Assembly (NCBI GenBank): GCA_001783335.1
Contig: MFLU01000007.1
Coordinates: 1 to 49,101 of the forward strand
Source: Candidatus Kaiserbacteria bacterium RIFCSPLOWO2_01_FULL_50_24
GTDB taxonomy: Bacteria > Patescibacteriota > Minisyncoccia > Phycocordibacterales > UBA2100
Reading direction: 5' to 3'
Length of the DNA: 49,101 nt
In this document: piece after piece, positions 19,055 to 31,321 of the stretch
Position numbering within the stretch: the stretch's first letter is position 1
Layout: every line of letters begins with the position of its first letter
Position numbers and translations under genes: made by a program
Notes under the pieces: generated by a model
Told to the model about the DNA's origin: nothing
Seen by the model: the letters and a program-made list of their open reading frames with translations, nothing else
The model's database searches: none

Positions 19055-19273
19055 ATGATTTTAAAAGAAAACAATTACGCCTTCATAGACAGTCAAAATT
19101 TAAATCTTGGCGTTCGCGCGCAGCGATGGGAGCTTGATTTTGCGCGTTTTCGCGTATATCGAGCTGATTTCTTGCCATACACCAGATTTGTCGCCGATAT
19201 TAGAAACAAGGTCCAAAAAAAGAAAGACCCCGATGAGGACAAAACCTCATCAGGGCACCCTTTCCGTTCGTGA
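19055..19273 (+). pseudogene. N-terminal fragment of a NYN-domain (LabA-like) protein
   Basis: MILKENNYAFIDSQNLNLGVRAQRWELDFARFRVY matches the start of NYN domains; the rest of the domain is missing. Confidence 0.6.
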
Positions 19274-19301
19274 TAATTCAAGTATAGCAAACCATTATTT
19301 T

Positions 19302-21659
19302 ATGTCAATGCCCAAACTGTGGATAAAATTTTTTAGAACTTTTGTTATTTTTTTGGTAATTTTTAGCTGGATTTTTTCGGGGTTTCCGCAGATTTTCAAT
19401 TTCCCGCCGGAGGTCGAGGAGGCGCGGGCGCAGACCGCCGACATCAATGTTCAGCGCGGCACCGCGGACATCGGCGTTGCTGGTGGCACGGCCGCACCCG
19501 GAACGCCGTTTGGGTCGCTTTCCTCGGCTTTTGTCAAGCTCCAAAACAACCGAACGAATAACGCCGGGCCATCGACGGTGGACGCCGTAACGTACCACGC
19601 CGACGATCTGTCAGGCACGGTTGAGCTCACGGGCACCAACCAGCTCACCTTCACGCGGCAATCGGCATCGACGAACGCTAATTTTAAGTTCGCCTGGGAA
19701 TCGTGGGAGTACGTCGGCGCGTCCGGTGGAGCCAACGAGTTTATCGTTCGCTCGCGGAACACGGTGACGCTGGCGAGCGTCGAATCCGCCACCGAAGCGC
19801 TCGACACTACTCCGACGAGCATCAATAAAACCATTCCGTTCATCACGGGAATAAAATCCGGCCAGACGTCGGCCGACGCCAACGCCATCACGGCTATCGC
19901 CTGGCTCACGGGCACCAACACGCTCAACGTGAAGCGCGGCGGGGGCTCAACCGGCACTACGGTCGTTCAGGTCGTGACAGTTGAATTCACCGGTTCCAAC
20001 TGGCAAGTGGCGCACGGCCGCGTTACCGGCAACACCGGGGACACCGGCACGATCACGCTCGTGGACGCGGCGGACGGCACGACCACGGGCGGGGGCGACA
20101 TCGTCAATTGGGCTACTGCCGTTATTTTCCATCAACTCAAGGCCGATTCCGACTTGGCTAATGACGCACTTGCCGACACCTCGTCTGCCTACCGGCCCGG
20201 GGCCAACACCACGACGGTAGCTTGGGCGTTTCATACGGACCATGCGGTAGGTACTGCCGCCGATGACCACTTCGTGCACGTTCTGCGGCACCCCGACCTG
20301 GCCCTCACACGCTTTACAAGTACCGGCTCGCTTCAGGGCGCGAACAATGTTGATGTTACTTCAGCCGGCCTCACCAACCTTGCGCAATCTGCTTCCGAGC
20401 TCTCGTGCACTTCATCGGGAACCGGCGCCGCCTATGCCCGCGGTTGGAAGAACGGACGGCTCACGTCGCTCACGAACTTTGAACACCGGGTGCACCGTTC
20501 TGGGAACACCATTGACTGCGCGATTCAGATCATTAATCTTTCCGGAATACTGGGGATAAGTTTTAATCAATCCGCCTATCGCCTGTTTAACAATGCAGAC
20601 TCAACTGACGTGGGCACGGCTTTGGCGGCGCAGGATACGGCCGCGACGCTTGGTTCAGCCGGCGCCGCGTTTCGTTTGAGAACGCTTTTGCATATTACCG
20701 GCACCGGCGGCCTATCAGCTAGCGGTCAAAATTTTAAACTCCAGTTTGCCCAGCAGTCAGGCACCTGCGATACGGCTTTTTCCGGCGAGACCTATGCCGA
20801 TGTTACCGCGGCAACGGTGATTGCTTACAACAACAACGCCACGCCGGCTGACGGCGCGGATTTAACCGATAACGCCAACGACCCGGAGCACAACTGTCCT
20901 TCCTGTCACACCAATGTCAATCAAGACTATGAAGAGTTGAATAACTTTACCAATTCGGTTGCGGCAATTCCCGCGGGACAGGACGGCAAATGGGATTTTT
21001 CTTTGAAAGACAATGGCGCGACCGCGAGCACCGCCTATTGCTTTCGCGCCGTCAAATCCGACGGCTCGCAACTTGATACCTACTCTGTGGTCCCTCAAAT
21101 TACAACCGCCGCGGCGGCCTCACTCACTTTTACCGTCAGTACAAATAATTTTCCTACCATCACACCCAACTCTCCTGTCTTTGCGACAACTACTTTAAGC
21201 ATTGACTCGTCAGGCGGATGGAATATTACACTTTCGGGCGATGACCAAAGTCCAACTAATACCGCGTGCGACCTTGATACCGATGCCTCGATTGGACTTA
21301 CCGACCAACTTGAATGGATTCCCGGAGCGGCGACTACCACCGCCGGAAACTCTGTGCGAATATCCTCACTTGATAACTCCGCCGATGCGCTTGCTTTTAG
21401 GGTTATGACCGCAAGCGGCACTGTCCCTTTTAGATCAACCGCGTGGTGGGGGACAACCGACAGCTACATTGACAGCGCGACCACCCTTTGGGCGGGCATT
21501 GCAAGTTCTACGGCGTCCAATAAAAAAATAGGCGAATCAAGCGTGAGTTCTGGCGGGGGAGCCGTTTTGAGCACCGTTCTCTATTATCTTGATGTGCCTA
21601 CTACCCAGCGAACAGGCGCCTACAGTTGTCCTTTGACCTATACGGCTGTCGCGCTTTAA
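19302..21659 (+). CDS. Large secreted surface protein with WxL-like C-terminal domain
   Basis: MSMPKLW.. signal anchor, Thr/Gly-rich repeats; C-terminal ~170 aa shares STAWWGT, LWAGIASST, YYLDV, TGxYxxPLTYTA with the 22196 ORF. Confidence 0.7.
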   Translation: MSMPKLWIKFFRTFVIFLVIFSWIFSGFPQIFNFPPEVEEARAQTADINVQRGTADIGVAGGTAAPGTPFGSLSSAFVKLQNNRTNNAGPSTVDAVTYHADDLSGTVELTGTNQLTFTRQSASTNANFKFAWESWEYVGASGGANEFIVRSRNTVTLASVESATEALDTTPTSINKTIPFITGIKSGQTSADANAITAIAWLTGTNTLNVKRGGGSTGTTVVQVVTVEFTGSNWQVAHGRVTGNTGDTGTITLVDAADGTTTGGGDIVNWATAVIFHQLKADSDLANDALADTSSAYRPGANTTTVAWAFHTDHAVGTAADDHFVHVLRHPDLALTRFTSTGSLQGANNVDVTSAGLTNLAQSASELSCTSSGTGAAYARGWKNGRLTSLTNFEHRVHRSGNTIDCAIQIINLSGILGISFNQSAYRLFNNADSTDVGTALAAQDTAATLGSAGAAFRLRTLLHITGTGGLSASGQNFKLQFAQQSGTCDTAFSGETYADVTAATVIAYNNNATPADGADLTDNANDPEHNCPSCHTNVNQDYEELNNFTNSVAAIPAGQDGKWDFSLKDNGATASTAYCFRAVKSDGSQLDTYSVVPQITTAAAASLTFTVSTNNFPTITPNSPVFATTTLSIDSSGGWNITLSGDDQSPTNTACDLDTDASIGLTDQLEWIPGAATTTAGNSVRISSLDNSADALAFRVMTASGTVPFRSTAWWGTTDSYIDSATTLWAGIASSTASNKKIGESSVSSGGGAVLSTVLYYLDVPTTQRTGAYSCPLTYTAVAL

Positions 21660-21681
21660 GACGGCAGACAGCAGGGGTGTG

Positions 21682-21972
21682 CCCCCACACTAATTAAGAC
21701 TTTTGAATTATGTTCTATGTTTATATTCTAAAAAGCAAAAAAGATACTAACCTCTATATAGGTTATACAAATAATCTTAAACGGAGGATGGAAGAACATA
21801 ATTCAGGTGAGAATAAATCAACGAAGTTTCGAAGGCCGTTTGAGTTGATTTATTACGAAGCATACAAATCAGAAGATGATGCCAAACATAGAGAAGATAT
21901 GCTGAAGCTTTTTGGACGCGCTTTAGGAGGTTTAAAACGCAGGATTAAATTAAGTCTTAATTAGTGTGGGGG
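21682..21972. mobile_element. GIY-YIG gene bounded by 21-bp perfect inverted repeats
   Basis: cccccacactaattaagactt (21682-21702) / aagtcttaattagtgtggggg (21952-21972). Confidence 0.6.
21710..21964 (+). CDS. GIY-YIG endonuclease-family protein
   Basis: 84 aa; FYVYILKSKKDTNLYIGYTNNLKRRMEEHN. Confidence 0.9.
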   Translation: MFYVYILKSKKDTNLYIGYTNNLKRRMEEHNSGENKSTKFRRPFELIYYEAYKSEDDAKHREDMLKLFGRALGGLKRRIKLSLN

Positions 21973-22117
21973 TGTGGATAAGTTATTTGATGTCAGTATA
22001 CATAATGATACAGTAGAGTCATGAGTGCTGTGTATAAAAAACATCAAAACTTAGTGCGGATTCCGTCTCTCTCTCTCTACTCGTAGGGGTTTTATCAATA
22101 AACCAAAGTGTTGCTAA

Positions 22118-22141
22118 GCGCCCATATTTGGGTGCCTTTTT
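22118..22141 (+). terminator. Terminator-like hairpin upstream of surface gene
   Basis: gcgcccatatttgggtgc followed by cttttt. Confidence 0.5.
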
Positions 22142-22195
22142 ATTTTGTAAGTAAAGGTCGGAAGAAAATTAAAAATATTAAAAATATTAAAATAT

Positions 22196-22879
22196 ATGTT
22201 TAAACACATCGGCACATCAATAAAAGAAGATATTCATTTGCTTGGCGCGGCGTTGTTTGTCACGTTGTTGGTATTTTCCGGCCTTTATGCTACCTATGCC
22301 TACGGAGAAGCAGTAAACTTGACGGTAACGGTGAGCTCAACATTAAGCTTTACGACGAGCACTAATCAGTTTGCCGCTTTAACGCCAGGAACGCCGAGAC
22401 AGGCAACCACAACACTCTCCGTAACGACCAATAATGCTAACGGCTGGAATGTCACACTTTCCTGTGATGACAGAACGCTTACGGTAGCGTGTGGAAGCAT
22501 CGGTGGCCTTAATGTTACAGAACTTCCGGATGCCACCGGATGGATTGTTGCTGCTGCCACCGCGACAACGAGCGCGGGAAATGCCGTCGCCATTACTTCG
22601 GGAAATGATTTTCTATATTTCCGAATGATGAGTGCCTCCGGTTCTGTGCCGTTTCGTTCGACGGCATGGTGGGGCACGAGCGACGCGATGTTTAACGGGA
22701 GCCAGTTATGGGCTGGAATCGCCAGCTCAACGAATGCTTCCAGAATCGGAAACGCGGGAGCCGGTTCCTATAGCGTAAGCGCGCACCTAAACACCGTACA
22801 GTACTACCTTGATGTTTCGTCAGGCCAGCAAACTGGCGATTACGAAGCCCCCTTGACATATACGGCAACGGCAAACTAG
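22196..22879 (+). CDS. WxL-like secreted surface protein
   Basis: 227 aa; signal peptide, NGWNVTLSCDD, SASGSVPFRSTAWWGTSD, LWAGIASST, VQYYLDVSSGQQTGDYEAPLTYTATAN. Confidence 0.65.
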   Translation: MFKHIGTSIKEDIHLLGAALFVTLLVFSGLYATYAYGEAVNLTVTVSSTLSFTTSTNQFAALTPGTPRQATTTLSVTTNNANGWNVTLSCDDRTLTVACGSIGGLNVTELPDATGWIVAAATATTSAGNAVAITSGNDFLYFRMMSASGSVPFRSTAWWGTSDAMFNGSQLWAGIASSTNASRIGNAGAGSYSVSAHLNTVQYYLDVSSGQQTGDYEAPLTYTATAN

Positions 22880-22882
22880 AAT

Positions 22883-23815
22883 TTGATTTCCATGAAAGAT
22901 TCGTTAATAACCATAAGAGTGGTAATACTTTTCACTGTTTTGTTCAGCGTGGCTTTGGTGGGGGTTGACGCAGTTTATGCCGATAGTACGGGTTTAACTA
23001 TACAGCCCGTCAAAATCTCTAAAACGATAGGACCCGGCGAATCCATATCTGGTGAAATTATTCTAAAAAACGAAAGTGAGGGCGCGGCGAGTGTTGAAGT
23101 TACTGTTGAGGATTTTGTCCCTGCCGCCGGAAGCACCAATATCCAGTTTGTCGGCAGGGCGGAAGGAGTAACGACGGTCCGGGATTGGATAACGCTTGAC
23201 GCGCCCGATTCGTTTGTCTTTGGAAAAGGTCAGTCAAGAAACATTACCTATACTATACGAGCGCCTTCGCACGCCGAACCCGGCGGGCACTTTGGCGTTG
23301 TCTTTTTTAAGGCAAGTGATGCCAACGAGCAAGGTCAGCTTAAGGTTGGCACAAGAGTCGGCGTGCTCGTTTTTATAACGGTTCCCGGAAACCAACTGCA
23401 AAGTGGCAATGTTTTGGATTTTTCCGGGCCGTTTTTTGTGCAGAAAGGTCCGGTCGAATTTACCATCAAATTTGAAAATACCGGCACGGTTCATTTTGAG
23501 CCGAAAGGAACCATAACCATAACCAATATATTCGGGAAAGAGGTTGGTGTGGTTGAAGTGGCGGGACAGGCGGTATTGCCAACAGGGGTTCGTGATCTTG
23601 CCGCGGCGTGGAATGCAGAAGGATTATTAATCGGTCGCTACGTCGCAGAGATAAACATTGTTGATGGGGAAGGGCGGGAGCTTACCGCCAATCGCATCGC
23701 GTTTTACGCGTTTCCAATATTGTATGTGATTGCTTTTCTCATAACCATTATTGTGCTCTTTTTCGGTATCAAGTTTATTAGGAAAAATATCAAGATTTCA
23801 ATCTGGAGAAAATAG
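22883..23815 (+). CDS. DUF916-like (WxL-interacting-protein-like) exported membrane protein
   Basis: 310 aa; signal peptide, two Ig-like regions (GPGESISGEIILKNES; EFTIKFENTGTVHFEPKGTITI), C-terminal TM then basic tail. Confidence 0.65.
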   Translation: MISMKDSLITIRVVILFTVLFSVALVGVDAVYADSTGLTIQPVKISKTIGPGESISGEIILKNESEGAASVEVTVEDFVPAAGSTNIQFVGRAEGVTTVRDWITLDAPDSFVFGKGQSRNITYTIRAPSHAEPGGHFGVVFFKASDANEQGQLKVGTRVGVLVFITVPGNQLQSGNVLDFSGPFFVQKGPVEFTIKFENTGTVHFEPKGTITITNIFGKEVGVVEVAGQAVLPTGVRDLAAAWNAEGLLIGRYVAEINIVDGEGRELTANRIAFYAFPILYVIAFLITIIVLFFGIKFIRKNIKISIWRK

Positions 23816-23819
23816 ATGA

Positions 23820-26800
23820 ATGTGCACAAACTTTTTACAATATGTTCAGCATATTCGTGCATGGCCGCTTGCCATGCTCGTCTTTTTGTTTGTACCCGTC
23901 ACCGCGTTTTCCGCCACGACCGTTTTGACCGTGACCATCGGTGCTGAAACATCGAGTGTTGATTACTATACGGAAGGCGTTAACCCCACGTCAGTATTTC
24001 CGCGTTTGGCGCAGACGAGTGCTACAACCATGTATGAAGTTAAATTCCCCGTTAATGTTTCTATTCCGTCAGGAGGGAAGATAGTGATACTGTTCCCAGT
24101 CGGTTTTAGCTTTGCTTCTCTGTGCCAGACCCCGATTACCTCTGTGGAAAATGACGATATTAACGGATTTTCCGCCGGTGTCGTTTCTATTGCATCCATC
24201 TCCTGCAATAGTTCTACGCGAATAATTTCAATTACCACCGGAGGTGCGACGGTCGCCGTGGGCGATCGTGTACGTTTTTTTATACAGGATGTGGTCAACT
24301 CCGTTCAGGCGAGGGATTATACCACCGCGGGTTATATGACAACTATTGAGACACAAAACACCTCCGGCGCATTTTTGGAATCAAAATCATCACAGCCATT
24401 TTTTCTGGCGCAGGCGGGAACGCAAATAATTTCTGGCACGGCTTTTGACGACAACGGTTCCGGGCTTTTTGGCTTTGCAAACGACGGGATTAAAAACGGT
24501 TCAGAGCCGGGGGTGAGCGGCGTTCGCGCGTGCCTCCGCGGCGCAAGCGGTGTTTTTTGTTCCGTCACCGACACAAACGGTTTATATAATTTTGGCAATC
24601 TCTCCAACGGGACGTATCACATAGACATTCCCTCGCTTGTCTCGGGGAATTTCGTCGGCGGACCGTTTTTCCGCGACGTTGTCCTTTCGGGAGGGCAGAA
24701 TGCGACCGGAATTAATTTCGCGCTCCAATCCTCCAATAGAAGTGTTACCGTGAACATCTCCGGAATTCCCTCCGGCACCAATCTTGATGTATTTGCTTTT
24801 AGTCCCACAAGTATAGAATTTGGCGGCACCATCGTTCGCGAAGTGCTCTGGGACGGAAACAGTGGCCGCACGGCGGTGCTCCCTTTGCTTGACGGGTCTT
24901 GGGAAATCGGCGTTAGGTCGTGGATGCCAAAAGACCCTTCCATGATGACCGCTCAAGTGCCGATGCAGGTCAATTTTGTTGTTCCACAACCGCAACAAAT
25001 CCAAATTTCTGGAACAGGAACATATACCATAAGTTTCGCGCTTACTGCCGCGAACAACATTATTAAAGGAAAAGTGAAAGACGGTTCCGAAAATGCAATT
25101 CCCAATGTGTTTATGCAGGTAACAGCTTCCTCCGGTTCAAGCGAGGGAGCGTCCCGCGGCCAGTCACTTAATGACGGCACGTTTGAATTGCGGGTGCGAA
25201 ACGGAGCGTACAAGATAATCGCCACAATGCCGGGCATGCCTTCCTCAAATGAAGTTGAGGTTACCGTAAATAACGACAGCGGAAATGTGGCGACAGACAG
25301 CAACAGTACCGCTGACGTATATATTGGCGGAACTCTTGTTACCAACGATGGCGACAACGGTAGCGATAACCTTGTCCTAAAAATCAGTAAGGGCTCCCGC
25401 TCTATTTCGGGGAAGGTACTTGACGAATCCGGGAACGCCATCCCATATGCGCATATAGGCGCGCAAAAACTTGATGCGTCTAGCAATCCTACAGGAAGCG
25501 TGGTTGGGTCGCCGACAGACGCCTCCGGAAATTTCACCGTGTACGTTTCTGACGGAACGTGGAAACTTCAGGGGTACGCGCCGGGATACGGCGAATTGAG
25601 CTCTCTCACCGTTACCGTTTCCGGTTCCAACCAGACCGGTAAAAATCTTCAGGCATCCGCCGCTTCGTTCGGGACCATTACCGGCCGAGTAACAAAAAGC
25701 GGGAGCGCAGTGGTTGGCGCATTCGTATCCGCCCACGGTTCATCAGGAGGAAACATGACAGTAACCGACGCGAGTGGTGATTACTCACTCAAAGTAAAAG
25801 CGGGGAGCGGATACACCGTAGAAGGTTTTATGCAGGGTTCTGGGCCCACGTCTCAAATTACCGGCGTTACGGTTACCGCCGGAGCCACGGCAAGCGGAAA
25901 AAACTTAACCTTAAGCACTCCCGGCACCATAAGAGTTACCATAAGTGGCGTAAGCGACGCCTTTGTAAACGCACTTGATTCTTCCGGTAGAGGAAACGGG
26001 ACCGCCTCAAATCCGACAAGCGGTATCTACGACATCAATGTTCCCGCAGGCACCTACATCGTTACTGCGCAATCTTCGAGCCATGGACCCATCGGCTCCG
26101 AGACGGGAGTCGTTGTTTCCGGCGGGGCAACCACCAATGTTTCATTTTCTCCGTCCACAGTTTACACGGTTTCCGGAAATGTCCAGTCATCTTCCTCTAT
26201 TTGTAAGAATAGCGCCTCGGTACTTTTGTCGGATGCCACCAAGGGACGGAAAATCGTTGTTACCGCGGATTCCGCCGGCGCCTACTCGCTATCGGTCCCC
26301 AACGGCAACTATCAAATAAGCGCCTCAAAGCCGGGATGCATTGATACTGCGGCGCCCTCGTCACTTTTGGTAAACGGCTCAAATGTGAGTTCGGGAACCG
26401 CCAGGACTCTGGCTGTGGCGGATGCTACGGTCTCCGGCAGTGTTACGCTTTCGGGGAGCAATGTTTCGGCATCCACGCGGGTAATCGCTAAAAATTCAAA
26501 CGGTATATATGCGTTTGCAAGCGTGGATACATCTGCCGGGAGCGGCACCAACTATACGCTGAATCTTAACGCAGGCAGCTGGACCGTGTGGGCGCGCTCT
26601 GACGGATATACGTCATCGGAACAAACGACATCAGTGTCTTCCGGAGGAAGTGGAACGCTAAACATAACCCTCTCGGCCTTGAGCGGGTATTCAATAAGCG
26701 ATAGCAAGTCATCACTCATAACTCCCTCGCAGGGCGGAACCGTACGCAACACAGAGATCGGCAGCAACTTCCAAATGCAAATCCCTGCGGGGGTCTTCGG

Positions 26801-28241
26801 AAATTCATCCGATTCAAATTCAGTCAGCACCAGAGTGACAAGCGCCGTTATTACCGAGACACCGACCGGAAAAGTGGTTGGCGGTAAAGGGATTGAAATT
26901 ACCTCGCAGGACTCATCCGGTCAGTCCGTCACTTCGTTGTCCTCGTCTTCGGGCACCGGAGTTACGATTACGGTTCCGTACGAGGAGTCCGACGTTACAA
27001 CACTAGGAGGAGACGAATCAAAATTGGTTCTTGCTTCGTGGTCGGAGGACAAGCAAGAATGGGATCCGCTCTCAACAACCGTTGACGCGACTAACAACAC
27101 TCTCACGGCCATAGCAACTCACTTTTCTATATTTGCCCCCATCGTTCCTACGGGCGGAGGCGCGCCCTCTATCCCGAGCGGACTTTCCGCAAGCGCGGTC
27201 AGTTCTTCGCAGATAAATCTTTCGTGGACTGCGTCCGATGATGCCACCAGCTATGATATTTACCGTGACACTTCCTCGAGCGGTTCATTTACAAGGGTAG
27301 GCAGTGAGCCAACCGTTTCTTCCGGTGATACTACGGCATACGCAGACACGGGACTTTCTGCAGGTACGACGTACTACTATAAAATTAGCGCACTCAACGC
27401 CTCCGGAGAGTCCGCGGTATCAAGCGCCGTGTCGGCAAAAACCAGTGATGCCAGTAGTAGCAGTAGTAACAGCAGTAGTGGCGGCGGAGGTGGGGGTGGT
27501 GGTATTGTCTCGGCTCCCGCGACAAGCGCGGTATTCAGCGGCAAGGCGTATCCGGGAAGCACCGTAACCTTGCTCAAAGACGCACAAATCGCGGCGATGA
27601 CTATCTCTGGGCAAGACGCCAAATTTCAGATAAATCTTTCAGGGCTTTCCGGCGGCAGTTATATCTTCAGTGTTTATTCGGAGGATAAAAATGGCATACG
27701 CTCATCACTTCTTACCTTTCCGGTGAGCGTAACAAGCGGCACTACGGCAAATATAACCGGCATTTTCATTGCGCCAACCATCGCTGTTGATAAAAGCGAA
27801 GTGAAACGAGGAGAAAGTATCGCTATTTTTGGCCAGTCCGCGCCTAAAGCGGATATTACCGTTGCAATAGGTTCGGAGGAAGAATTTTTTGGTAAAACCA
27901 CCGCCGACCAAGACGGCGCCTATCTTTACAATTTTGACACTGCCAAACTTGAGAGTGGCCAACATCTCGCCAAGTCAAAAACGGCACAGGACGGCGAAAT
28001 AAGTTCTTTCAGCAAGGCGGTGGCATTTCTTGTGGGTAAGAAAAATGTGCTTGCGCCCGTACAGGAAAAAACAATCGTCAAAGGAGATCTCAACGGAGAC
28101 AGAAAAGTAAATCTTGTTGACTTTTCTGTTGCCGCATACTGGTATAAGCGTGCCAACCCTCCCGCGTCCGTAGACGTCAACGGCGACGGGAAAGTCAATT
28201 TGGTCGATTTTAGTATCATGGCGTTTCATTGGACTGGGTAG
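23820..28241 (+). CDS. Giant modular surface protein: SdrD/carboxypeptidase-regulatory-like repeats, Fn3, C-terminal type-I-like dockerin
   Basis: 1473 aa; signal peptide, repeated GxVxDxSGNAI...TVTASGxYxLxV modules, Fn3 PSGLSASAVSSSQINLSWTAS, Ser/Gly linker, terminal DLNGDRKVNLVDFSVAAYWY + DVNGDGKVNLVDFSIMAFHW. Confidence 0.85.
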   Translation: MCTNFLQYVQHIRAWPLAMLVFLFVPVTAFSATTVLTVTIGAETSSVDYYTEGVNPTSVFPRLAQTSATTMYEVKFPVNVSIPSGGKIVILFPVGFSFASLCQTPITSVENDDINGFSAGVVSIASISCNSSTRIISITTGGATVAVGDRVRFFIQDVVNSVQARDYTTAGYMTTIETQNTSGAFLESKSSQPFFLAQAGTQIISGTAFDDNGSGLFGFANDGIKNGSEPGVSGVRACLRGASGVFCSVTDTNGLYNFGNLSNGTYHIDIPSLVSGNFVGGPFFRDVVLSGGQNATGINFALQSSNRSVTVNISGIPSGTNLDVFAFSPTSIEFGGTIVREVLWDGNSGRTAVLPLLDGSWEIGVRSWMPKDPSMMTAQVPMQVNFVVPQPQQIQISGTGTYTISFALTAANNIIKGKVKDGSENAIPNVFMQVTASSGSSEGASRGQSLNDGTFELRVRNGAYKIIATMPGMPSSNEVEVTVNNDSGNVATDSNSTADVYIGGTLVTNDGDNGSDNLVLKISKGSRSISGKVLDESGNAIPYAHIGAQKLDASSNPTGSVVGSPTDASGNFTVYVSDGTWKLQGYAPGYGELSSLTVTVSGSNQTGKNLQASAASFGTITGRVTKSGSAVVGAFVSAHGSSGGNMTVTDASGDYSLKVKAGSGYTVEGFMQGSGPTSQITGVTVTAGATASGKNLTLSTPGTIRVTISGVSDAFVNALDSSGRGNGTASNPTSGIYDINVPAGTYIVTAQSSSHGPIGSETGVVVSGGATTNVSFSPSTVYTVSGNVQSSSSICKNSASVLLSDATKGRKIVVTADSAGAYSLSVPNGNYQISASKPGCIDTAAPSSLLVNGSNVSSGTARTLAVADATVSGSVTLSGSNVSASTRVIAKNSNGIYAFASVDTSAGSGTNYTLNLNAGSWTVWARSDGYTSSEQTTSVSSGGSGTLNITLSALSGYSISDSKSSLITPSQGGTVRNTEIGSNFQMQIPAGVFGNSSDSNSVSTRVTSAVITETPTGKVVGGKGIEITSQDSSGQSVTSLSSSSGTGVTITVPYEESDVTTLGGDESKLVLASWSEDKQEWDPLSTTVDATNNTLTAIATHFSIFAPIVPTGGGAPSIPSGLSASAVSSSQINLSWTASDDATSYDIYRDTSSSGSFTRVGSEPTVSSGDTTAYADTGLSAGTTYYYKISALNASGESAVSSAVSAKTSDASSSSSNSSSGGGGGGGGIVSAPATSAVFSGKAYPGSTVTLLKDAQIAAMTISGQDAKFQINLSGLSGGSYIFSVYSEDKNGIRSSLLTFPVSVTSGTTANITGIFIAPTIAVDKSEVKRGESIAIFGQSAPKADITVAIGSEEEFFGKTTADQDGAYLYNFDTAKLESGQHLAKSKTAQDGEISSFSKAVAFLVGKKNVLAPVQEKTIVKGDLNGDRKVNLVDFSVAAYWYKRANPPASVDVNGDGKVNLVDFSIMAFHWTG

Positions 28242-28269
28242 TGAAAAAATGGAAAAATAAAAAAGCAAA

Positions 28270-28641
28270 ATGGAAAACGATAAAGAAAAATTTAAAAAGG
28301 AATTCAAAGCGCGACTATATGTATTGACATTGCGTATCGTGCGATTTGTCGACGCAATGCCAAGAGGAATGGTAAGTGAAGTAATGGGGAAGCAACTATT
28401 GCGGAGCGGTACGAGCGTACTTGCAAATTATATAGAGGCGCAGTCAGCAAGTTCCAAGAAAGATTTTACAAATTTTTTCACGCATTCTCTTAAATCTGCG
28501 AATGAGTCGAAGGTGTGGATTACGCTTTTGCGTGATACCAACAAGGTTTCAAAGAGTGATGCGGAAGCACTTTTGTCTGCACTGTCGGAGGCGGCGCGCG
28601 TTATCGCCTCAAGCATACTCACGCTCAAAGGTAAAAAATGA
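28270..28641 (+). CDS. Four-helix-bundle protein (23S rRNA IVP-like)
   Basis: 123 aa; MENDKEKFKKEFKARLYVLTLRIVRFVDAMPRG...LLRSGTSVLANYIEAQSASSKKDF. Confidence 0.85.
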   Translation: MENDKEKFKKEFKARLYVLTLRIVRFVDAMPRGMVSEVMGKQLLRSGTSVLANYIEAQSASSKKDFTNFFTHSLKSANESKVWITLLRDTNKVSKSDAEALLSALSEAARVIASSILTLKGKK

Positions 28642-28643
28642 TT

Positions 28644-29540
28644 ATGTACAAAAAACTTATTTTTCATTTGGCATTGTCATTTTTCATTTTTCATTTTGCT
28701 TTTTCCATTTTTACTTCGCCGGCTTTTGCAGCCGACATATTTTTTGATGCCGACGGCAGGCAGTTTCTGCAAGGCGAGGATTTTTTGTTAAATGTGTTTC
28801 TGAATACGGAAGGGGATTCGGTAAATGCAATTGAGGGGCATCTCGTGTTTCCCGATGACCTTCTAGACATGCTGGAGGTTCGGGACGGCGACTCCGCCGT
28901 TACCTTTTGGATTAAAAAACCAAAATTTCTTACATCAAACACCCTTGAATTTTCCGGCATCACCCCCGGAGGATTATCGGGAATCAAACATTTCTTGTTT
29001 GCCGTTATATTTCGTGCGAAGACGGACGGAAACGGCGCGGTGAGGTTGGGAGAGCTGCAGATTTTGCAAAATGACGGGTACGGAACGCGCGCGCGCGCCA
29101 CGTCGGTCCCATTTTCATTTTCAATCTCTAAAAGTTCCGTACCGTCGGAATCAAGTGTTGAGCCGGCGCAAGATGTAATACCGCCGGAGAATTTTACGCC
29201 ACTTATTATACAAAATCAGAATGTATTTGAGGGGAAGAACGTTCTTGTGTTTTCGGCGCAAGACAAAGTGTCCGGGATTGACCGCTACGAAGTGCGCGAG
29301 GGGACATGGGCGCGCTATGCGGAAGCAGAGAGCCCCTTTCTTCTGCAAAATCAGGCACTGGATAAAAAGATTTATGTAAAAGCGATTGATAAAAATGGCA
29401 ACGAGCGTGTTGAAGTTGTTTATCCACCGCACTCAAGTTTGTTGCACGAAAGTTATTGGATGCTTGGTATAGTAATGATGAGCGCAGTGTTACTCCTCGC
29501 TATACTATGGCGAAGGCCTACAAAATATTTTTTCTTTTAG
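28644..29540 (+). CDS. Cohesin-domain protein, C-terminal TM anchor
   Basis: Signal peptide; VNAIEGHLVFPDDLLDMLEV...LEFSGITPGGLSGIKHFLFAVIFRAKTDGNGAVRLGELQILQNDGYGTRARA; C-terminal TM + RR. Confidence 0.75.
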   Translation: MYKKLIFHLALSFFIFHFAFSIFTSPAFAADIFFDADGRQFLQGEDFLLNVFLNTEGDSVNAIEGHLVFPDDLLDMLEVRDGDSAVTFWIKKPKFLTSNTLEFSGITPGGLSGIKHFLFAVIFRAKTDGNGAVRLGELQILQNDGYGTRARATSVPFSFSISKSSVPSESSVEPAQDVIPPENFTPLIIQNQNVFEGKNVLVFSAQDKVSGIDRYEVREGTWARYAEAESPFLLQNQALDKKIYVKAIDKNGNERVEVVYPPHSSLLHESYWMLGIVMMSAVLLLAILWRRPTKYFFF

Positions 29541-31015
29541 TTTTTGTCTTGACAGTACCGTCTGGCCTCTATGCAGCTGAATTACACTTCTCGCCGGCGT
29601 TAGCTACATACTCTGTAGGGAAAACATTCACCGTCAACCTGCTTGTTTCCTCGGGAGAACAAGCGCTTAACGCCGTTGGCGGGGAAGTGTTTTTTTCTCC
29701 CGAAGTATTGAGTGTGGTTTCTGTTTCAAAAGAGCAGTCAGTCGTTAATTTGTGGGTAAGTGAGCCGTCGTTTTCAAATACCGCCGGCTCTATTTCATTT
29801 GAAGGCGTTGCGCTGAATCCCGGTTTTCAGGGTTCCGGAGGGAAAGTGTTATCTATTGCGTTTCGAGCAAAAACGGCAGGAGTTGCCGACGTGCGTTTTG
29901 TATCCGGGTCGGTGCTGGCGAACGACGGTACCGGAACGAACATTATTGAGGAAATGCGCTCCGCGAGTTTCACTATACGTTCAGCAGCGTCCGACACTGC
30001 GGAGAGTTCTCCCGTCCCGTCTGCTTCTCCACGAAGCGAACCGAAGCCGGCTAAAACAGCCGCTGGTGCGCCGAGCGCGCCTGATGTAATGTCTTCTTCA
30101 CACCCCGATTCCGAGCGTTGGTACGCAAATACTACCGCAACGTTCCGGTGGGATGTTCCAAACGGCACCACGGCCGTTCGGCTTCTGTACGGCACAAAAG
30201 AAAGCATAATACCAACAATACTCTACCCGCGTCCTATCTCCGAAAAAGTCATTGAAGATATTCCCGATGGTACCTACTACTTTCACGCTCAACTAAAAAA
30301 TGACGCAGGGTGGAGCCCAGCGAGACATTTTAAGTTCAATGTTGATTCAACGAAGCCGGTTATATCAGCCGTTGTCCATCTTCCGGAACGCTCCACTCCG
30401 GGGCAAGCAATCTTTTCAATCACGGCTCGCGACGCACATTCCGGAATTGACCACTACGAAATCAGTGTCAACAACAATGAGCCAGAAATATGGAGTGGAA
30501 GCGCCGACGGTACATACGACGCACTGATACCCTCAAGTTTTCTTCAGGCATTAACATCAGTCATTATAAGCACTGATGCGGCAAAGGAGCATACGCTCAC
30601 CGTCAGCGCGGTAGATGGTGCCGGCAACAAGAGTTCGCAAACCGTACAATTTCTTGGCGTGTCGTCTGTTTGGATAAAAGAAACGTGGTTGGTGAAATAT
30701 ACTTCGGTTCTAGCGCTTGGTATACTTACAATGTTGTTAGCTTGGTTTTTGTGGCGTTACGCGTGTAACAAAAAAGCAGGAAGAGTGTATATATCGCGTG
30801 TGAGCGACATGCGCAGTACCAGAGCGCACAACAAGACGTACTGGCAATTGTTCGGGAAGGTTGTACTGATGCTCGCAAGGATATTGCTTATTGTGGTCAC
30901 CACTCCATTAATTATTCTATTCCGTACGATGCAAGAAATTTACCACGAAGTTTTGAGAACCTTTGCGTCCGGTACGTACAAACCAAAGATAAAAAACAAA
31001 TGGCCGCCACGGTAG
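29507..31015 (+). CDS. Cohesin-domain protein with Ig-like domain and C-terminal TM segments
   Basis: MAKAYKIFFLLVFVLTVPSGLYAAELHFSPALATYSVGKTFTVNLLVSS...LNAVGGEVFFSPEVLSVVSV...ISFEGVALNPGFQGSGGKVLSIAFRAKTAGVADVRFVSGSVLANDGTG. Confidence 0.75.
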   Translation: MAKAYKIFFLLVFVLTVPSGLYAAELHFSPALATYSVGKTFTVNLLVSSGEQALNAVGGEVFFSPEVLSVVSVSKEQSVVNLWVSEPSFSNTAGSISFEGVALNPGFQGSGGKVLSIAFRAKTAGVADVRFVSGSVLANDGTGTNIIEEMRSASFTIRSAASDTAESSPVPSASPRSEPKPAKTAAGAPSAPDVMSSSHPDSERWYANTTATFRWDVPNGTTAVRLLYGTKESIIPTILYPRPISEKVIEDIPDGTYYFHAQLKNDAGWSPARHFKFNVDSTKPVISAVVHLPERSTPGQAIFSITARDAHSGIDHYEISVNNNEPEIWSGSADGTYDALIPSSFLQALTSVIISTDAAKEHTLTVSAVDGAGNKSSQTVQFLGVSSVWIKETWLVKYTSVLALGILTMLLAWFLWRYACNKKAGRVYISRVSDMRSTRAHNKTYWQLFGKVVLMLARILLIVVTTPLIILFRTMQEIYHEVLRTFASGTYKPKIKNKWPPR

Positions 31016-31039
31016 ACGCGGCGGCCATTCGAAATTTCT

Positions 31040-31321
31040 ATGCTGCTGCCGCTTGCGCTTGGTGCGCTCGCGTGGGGTGGTGCGCACCTCTGGTTCAGGA
31101 TACCCCGCACGATTCAACATATGCGGTGCGAGGCGCGGGAAGCGGAAAAGGTGTCCGAAGAAGCATTCAGAGTCCTTCGCGCAGGTGTTGCCAACCATGT
31201 GGCGCGGCTTAAGAAGGTCAAAAGAAAACTCACAGAGGAAGAAGTGGAGTTTTTGGAACAGTTTGAACAAAAACTTGAAGAAGCGGAAGAAGTAATCACC
31301 AAGGAGATACAAGACATCTAG
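31040..31321 (+). CDS. Small membrane-anchored coiled-coil protein
   Basis: 93 aa; N-terminal hydrophobic stretch then charged helix KKVKRKLTEEEVEFLEQFEQKLEEAEEVI. Confidence 0.5.
   Translation: MLLPLALGALAWGGAHLWFRIPRTIQHMRCEAREAEKVSEEAFRVLRAGVANHVARLKKVKRKLTEEEVEFLEQFEQKLEEAEEVITKEIQDI

Follow-up and report, generated by a model that had tools for sequence, protein, structure and literature searches.

Dockerin and cohesin proteins at the locus

The window analysed here is the 49,101-nucleotide stretch at positions 1 to 49,101 of contig MFLU01000007.1 (assembly GCA_001783335.1) from Candidatus Kaiserbacteria bacterium RIFCSPLOWO2_01_FULL_50_24. The source genome (848,802 bp, 22 contigs, 99.6% complete), whose position within the Candidate Phyla Radiation (CPR) follows from its relatives, belongs to a tiny bacterium which is probably symbiotic. 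Central to this work are three genes on the forward strand of the window, which encode a secreted protein of 1473 amino acids (aa) ending in a dockerin and two downstream proteins with N-terminal cohesin domains, referred to as cohesin A and cohesin B proteins. A first-pass annotation, made from the DNA letters alone, had located the open reading frames (ORFs) and the dockerin-like repeats in this region, and both were found at those positions (Table 1).

Pfam searches resolved the 1473-aa product into a signal peptide, an SdrD_B domain, seven CarboxypepD_reg stretches, an fn3 domain, a Gly-rich linker, two immunoglobulin (Ig)-like domains and the C-terminal dockerin. The Dockerin_1 family (PF00404) was matched at residues 1421-1467 with an E value of 4.1e-7 and 30.5 bits (cut-off 22.9), and this is the sole dockerin in the whole genome. 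When searched against the PDB, the 57-aa C-terminus matched the solved dockerins 5nrm (1e-5), 2y3n (5e-5), 2yik, 4fl4 and 1daq, which are cellulosomal. An alignment of 63 orthologues (median length 355 aa) was then inspected. Their C-terminus of about 245 aa, comprising the Gly linker, the two Ig-like domains and the dockerin, is strongly conserved (Pfam matches to Dockerin in 61/63 and to Big_6 in 58/63); the N-terminal part is variable and ranges from 0 to 1227 aa, the upper value being that of the window protein. The description as a giant adhesin-like protein therefore holds for the 1473-aa product of the window but not for the family, since this size is peculiar to the present genome and most orthologues are about 355 aa long.

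Both F-hands carry Ca2+ ligands at loop positions 1, 3, 5, 9 and 12. In repeat 1 these are D, N, D, N and D in 62, 60, 63, 63 and 63 of the orthologues, respectively; repeat 2 is laxer at loop position 1 (D in 42/63). The 1473-aa product ends in a genuine type I dockerin, as expected from the two consecutive F-hands that had been noticed at its C-terminus. In cellulosomal dockerins, specificity is set by loop positions 10 and 11. At these positions the orthologues have L (61/63) followed by V or I (62/63) in repeat 1, and L (61/63) followed by V or I (58/63) in repeat 2, i.e., the L-V pair previously seen in both repeats of the window protein reflects a near-invariant L-[V/I] of the family. 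A dual binding mode has been described for type I dockerins (PMC12484212), and the occurrence of the same pair in both repeats fits such a mode of binding rather than proving it.

A search of the genome with the cohesin model PF00963 gave no match, the cohesin A and cohesin B proteins included, and phmmer searches of the two proteins against the PDB were uninformative. Single-sequence evidence alone would therefore miss both cohesins. For profile analysis, alignments were made of the N-terminal domains from 38 A-type and 48 B-type proteins, among them those of the window. Cellulosomal cohesins led the PDB profile searches with both alignments, and Cohesin was the most frequently matched Pfam family in both. 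Scanned singly, 24 of the 48 B-type members (best E value 5e-11) and 8 of the 38 A-type members (best 1.7e-5) matched PF00963. Homology between the A and B domains is shown by hhalign (E value 2.6e-34).

AlphaFold models of both N-terminal domains, calculated with alignments of relatives from public genomes, reached pLDDT values of 95.4 (cohesin A) and 95.0 (cohesin B) at a pTM of 0.88. When the cohesin A model was compared to the PDB with Foldseek, all 50 matches listed were cohesins; the best was 6kgc (best E value 1.6e-8, TM-score 0.77), and the second was 2xdh, a non-cellulosomal cohesin of Archaeoglobus fulgidus with 23% identity. With cohesin B the first 39 matches were all cohesins (best 2vn5, E value 1.5e-10; TM-scores up to 0.81). 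Because profile, family and structure results agree, the cohesin identity of A and B is firm, and according to the models both N-terminal domains firmly have the cohesin jelly-roll fold. The first-pass annotation had proposed these cohesin domains; a different fold was looked for with the same models (pLDDT about 95), whose top PDB matches were cohesins throughout. Matches to the NCBIfam OmpL47 family were rejected as evidence of beta-barrels, as they stem from the Ig-like domains located behind the cohesin domains on the C-terminal side.

A chance or compositional artefact, in which low-complexity beta-sandwiches and EF-hand-like repeats were misread as an interacting pair, might be suspected from the fact that single-sequence searches of both cohesin proteins yield no Pfam cohesin match. 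The profile, structure and synteny results all contradict this explanation and refute it, so that its probability is negligible.

Gene order, topology and distribution

All genes between positions 22196 and 31015 are located on the same strand and are either spaced by 3-28 bp or overlapping, on account of which they probably form one operon. Its 5' end is earlier than the dockerin gene, at about 22196 or 19107. The ORF of cohesin B opens at TTG 29456; the ATG at 29507, directly preceding the signal peptide, is the likely start because the signal peptide is then N-terminal. With regard to the two cohesin genes said to follow the dockerin gene, their strand and downstream position were as described, but they are not directly behind it because the IVP gene 28270-28641 lies in between.

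Table 1. Features of the dockerin-cohesin gene cluster (positions in the window)
Feature	Position	Strand	Evidence
850-aa secreted protein; C-terminal pilin-like domain in common with the 22196 product	19107-21659	+	phmmer E 5e-41 to the 22196 product; recruited by iterated Pam-pilin-type profile
227-aa pilin-like protein; N-terminal hydrophobic segment	22196-22879	+	NF058581 CPR_Pam_pilin_C, E 5e-5, 23 bits, under cut-off 55; iterated profile
p310, 310 aa; signal peptide, C-terminal transmembrane (TM) segment (276-294), without Pfam family	22883-23815	+	Topology prediction; family recurs 5' of dockerin genes
1473-aa secreted dockerin protein	23820-28241	+	Pfam; no TM besides signal segment
Type I dockerin module; F-hand Ca loops DLNGDRKVNLVD and DVNGDGKVNLVD	28080-28238	+	PF00404, E 4e-7; loop conservation in 63 orthologues; PDB dockerins
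123-aa four-helix 23S rRNA IVP-type protein, between dockerin and cohesin A genes	28270-28641	+	PF05635, E 4.5e-17
Cohesin A protein, 300 aa; signal peptide, cohesin domain (28722-29147), Ig/OmpL47-like domain, C-terminal TM (272-290)	28638-29540	+	AlphaFold/Foldseek, profile, topology
Cohesin B protein; signal peptide, cohesin domain (29567-29995), fn3/Ig-like domains, C-terminal TM	29507-31015	+	AlphaFold/Foldseek, profile, Pfam Cohesin in 24/48 relatives
93-aa ORF in the cohesin B frame after its TAG stop; detached TM and coiled-coil tail	31040-31321	+	80% identity to C-terminus of L107 and L110 cohesin B

With a motif taken solely from the cohesin B domain and derived from a closer subset of the diverse cohesin domain alignment, 80 loci were retrieved, and 68 of them had enough upstream DNA to be assessed. 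In 68/68 of these CPR loci the genes are arranged in the order dockerin, cohesin A and cohesin B on the same strand. The median distance from dockerin to cohesin A is 6 bp and that from cohesin A to cohesin B is -28 bp; a gap of 2.2 kb occurs in one locus. In addition, 40 loci of a first set, which had been selected by cohesin A, hold a homologue of the window dockerin. The labels of named cohesin B relatives include Magasanikbacteria, Falkowbacteria, Kaiserbacteria, Nomurabacteria, Taylorbacteria, Uhrbacteria, Wolfebacteria, Komeilibacteria and Colwellbacteria, and the dockerin-cohesin-cohesin gene order recurs in many candidate bacterial phyla. One contig with a CPR-type operon is labelled Candidatus Methylomirabilis (L128) and is probably mis-binned.

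Co-occurrence was determined at two taxonomic levels. In the order to which the window belongs (197 genomes), the A-type family was present in 71, Dockerin_1 in 78 and both in 56 (Fisher odds ratio 17.6, p 1e-17); in 47 of the order-level genomes the two are adjacent, with a dockerin under 1.5 kb 5' of a same-strand cohesin. Among 384 genomes of the phylum, 134 had the cohesin family, 151 a dockerin and 93 both (odds ratio 7.5, p 9e-19). These statistics are uncorrected for shared ancestry, and more weight is therefore given to gene order. A genome of the same genus as the window (G072, 99% complete) has neither the cohesin family nor a dockerin, so that the system was lost or gained within one genus. 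Seven genomes (G374, G265, G292, G515, G264, G053, G185) have 6-15 dockerin matches each, which suggests that multiple displayed proteins may compete there for the same cohesins.

A C-terminal TM segment was predicted in 64/66 cohesin A and 44/44 cohesin B proteins (108/110), such that the membrane anchors initially assigned to the two window proteins extend to their relatives. TM segments are almost never present in the dockerin proteins of relatives, and topology prediction detected no TM helix in the 1473-aa product beyond its signal segment. The predicted topology is complementary, with a secreted, anchor-less dockerin protein on one side and membrane-anchored cohesins on the other.

The two kinds of domains could also be relics or act independently of each other, with the F-hands merely stabilising the C-terminus of the secreted protein and the cohesin folds binding glycans, S-layer or host proteins. 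Cohesin-like folds resemble the beta-sandwiches of carbohydrate-binding modules (CBMs), a likeness that is in line with this idea. Unpaired non-cellulosomal dockerins do exist elsewhere, e.g., in giant ORFs of Omnitrophota that were proposed as adhesins (PMC10066038). However, independent function is hard to reconcile with a gene adjacency that is invariant across dozens of families, with the strong co-occurrence, and with the near-invariance of the dockerin recognition positions; we regard it as quite improbable.

A putative anchoring device and its relation to known systems

The locus probably encodes a non-cellulosomal, Ca2+-dependent cohesin-dockerin device that anchors a secreted surface protein to the CPR membrane. 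Starting from the observed domain identity, folds, topology and operon conservation, the following arrangement can be envisaged. The dockerin protein would be secreted without a membrane anchor of its own, and its conserved C-terminus (Gly linker, two Ig domains and the dockerin, loaded with Ca2+) would plug into the N-terminal cohesin domains of A and B, which would be held in the membrane by their C-terminal TM helix. On the cell surface the complex would display the variable N-terminal part, which in the window protein consists of Ig/CarboxypepD-type stalk domains over about 1200 aa. Given a two-fold symmetric dockerin with L-[V/I] in both loops, binding might take place in either orientation and with either cohesin A or cohesin B as partner. 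The complex may in turn belong to, or anchor, a pilus-like attachment apparatus, and its role could be in host attachment or in pilus anchoring.

Cohesin-dockerin pairs are best known from cellulosomes, and a degenerate cellulosome or another polysaccharide-degrading complex was considered on these grounds. Yet neither the operon proteins nor the dockerin orthologues are dominated by a glycoside hydrolase or carbohydrate-binding family: Pfam searches detected no carbohydrate-active enzyme or CBM domains in the operon proteins of the window, and none that recur in the dockerin orthologues. Moreover, each protein has one cohesin instead of the tandem cohesins of a scaffoldin, and the genome has a single dockerin. 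Without enzymes and scaffoldin arrays this explanation was rejected as exceedingly unlikely, in agreement with the non-cellulosomal nature assumed for the complex at the outset.

The anchoring device proposed here nevertheless shares features with the cellulosomal surface attachment of Clostridium and Acetivibrio (anchoring scaffoldins OlpC, OlpA and ScaB). These systems have the same cohesin fold (4dh2, 3ul4 and 4ums are among the top structural matches) and likewise combine a two-F-hand Ca2+ dockerin on the displayed protein with a cohesin on a surface protein. In contrast to them, the CPR operon lacks enzymes, scaffoldin arrays and CBMs, has a single TM-anchored cohesin per protein and occurs in a genome of about 0.85 Mb; furthermore, its recognition pair L-[V/I] is near-invariant over many candidate phyla and not species-specific. 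Cohesin folds outside cellulosomes are represented by 2xdh of A. fulgidus and by 2jh2 and 2vo8 from glycoside hydrolases of Clostridium perfringens, whereas in CPR bacteria they are part of a fixed three-gene operon with a matching dockerin and two membrane-anchored cohesins.

The genes upstream of the dockerin gene point to a connection with pili. Three related subfamilies of the conserved Ig/TM-type protein p310 are encoded directly 5' of the dockerin gene in 42/60 loci. The 850-aa and 227-aa proteins (window 19107-22879) have a common C-terminal pilin-like domain, and several loci have a long/short pair of this kind about 1 kb 5' of the dockerin gene. While the 227-aa protein stays below the cut-off of NF058581, a model of the NCBIfam CPR Pam pilus system (NF058581; NF058579, PamT), its relatives at locus L119 exceed it with 66.5 and 85.7 bits. 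Pilin-like genes found with the iterated profile are located upstream on the same strand in 37/39 cases; as they were recognised in only 16/49 loci, the link to pili is not universal. PamT (NF058579) had no match in the genome of the window, and the Pam models found gave no match to either the dockerin or the cohesin proteins; NF058580 is a lipase family and irrelevant to this question. Searches of the open literature yielded no relevant paper on Pam pili. The p310-type and pilin-like neighbours suggest a complex that is part of a pilus-like attachment apparatus or anchors one.

These neighbours also permit a different assignment, according to which the dockerin protein would form the base of a Pam-type pilus or anchor it, with pilins and p310 forming the filament and the cohesins its membrane foundation, so that the operon would serve pilus anchoring and not adhesin display. 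Upstream pilin-like genes on the same strand, usually one long and one short, the NF058581 matches above cut-off at L119, and the location of p310 between pilin and dockerin genes all speak for it. By comparison, the dockerin-cohesin-cohesin arrangement is present in all assessable loci and recognisable pilins in a minority, an N-terminal part of 0 to 1227 aa would be odd for a structural base, and Pam families match neither dockerin nor cohesin proteins. Anchoring of a displayed surface protein is therefore preferred, and a pilus base is considered rather unlikely.

Several observations weigh against the anchoring device. The window cohesins are only about 4-23% identical to solved cohesins in structure alignments and, taken alone, do not reach the PF00963 model. 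Some genomes have dockerins but no detected cohesin of the family, or the reverse, and pilin-like genes are recognised upstream in the minority of loci given above. Finally, the C-terminus of cohesin B is rearranged in the window, and its function could for this reason be altered here.

Within the Patescibacteria, a further dockerin protein of the cell envelope is SEML1_0315 of the Saccharibacterium Southlakia epibionticum, which is essential for growth on the host (PMC10633639). The authors of that study speculate on glycan targeting and do not mention a cohesin. The likeness to the proteins described here is that of a dockerin protein in a patescibacterial envelope, which might also belong to this family or have a cohesin partner; by analogy, the essentiality of SEML1_0315 may be taken as outside support for a role in attachment.

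That cohesins and dockerins occur outside cellulosomes is known in general terms (Peer et al. 2009, as cited in PMC10066038). In the open literature, with subscription papers and preprints outside the search, no description of cohesins or of this dockerin-cohesin operon in CPR was found; papers in which cohesin, dockerin and CPR are all mentioned report cohesin proteins only in Firmicutes_A bins, or only general counts for polysaccharide degradation. Hence, while the parts are known, their arrangement, which is membrane-anchored, operonic and phylum-wide and has an almost fixed recognition code, appears to be undescribed. Tentatively, much of the CPR might use one near-invariant cohesin-dockerin code to plug a pilus-linked protein into the membrane for general host attachment, with swappable N-terminal payloads on a constant Ig-Ig-dockerin adaptor. 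The way in which CPR bacteria attach to their hosts is a major open question, and annotations are lacking for most of their surface proteins. The operon would represent a conserved two-component anchoring system in about a third of the sampled CPR genomes (cohesin family in 134/384), in which cohesin-dockerin pairing is central to the surface architecture and far removed from cellulose degradation, and it may offer an unusually conserved plug-and-socket pair to protein engineering.

Rearranged cohesin B tail and inserted genes

The last 134 residues of the window cohesin B are without relatives and unrelated to the family (region 30610-31321). The conserved, ancestral TM/coiled-coil tail that is fused to cohesin B in its relatives survives in the window as the same-frame 93-aa ORF behind the TAG stop. 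A GC-rich inverted repeat, TGGCCGCC...GGCGGCCA, spans the junction at the cohesin B stop (about 31001-31027).

The IVP gene between the dockerin and cohesin A genes is probably an inserted cassette. Four other loci have a gap of 400-470 bp at this place, and the insert is again an IVP or a GIY-YIG gene. Inserts of these two types were recorded at 28270-28641 and 21710-21964 in the window and at L107:4394-4777, L112:6491-6718, L137:6721-6993 and L171:6365-6664; they may be mobile cassettes acting at the RNA level or by homing. At L162/L074 an IVP-like stretch is located inside the cohesin A ORF.

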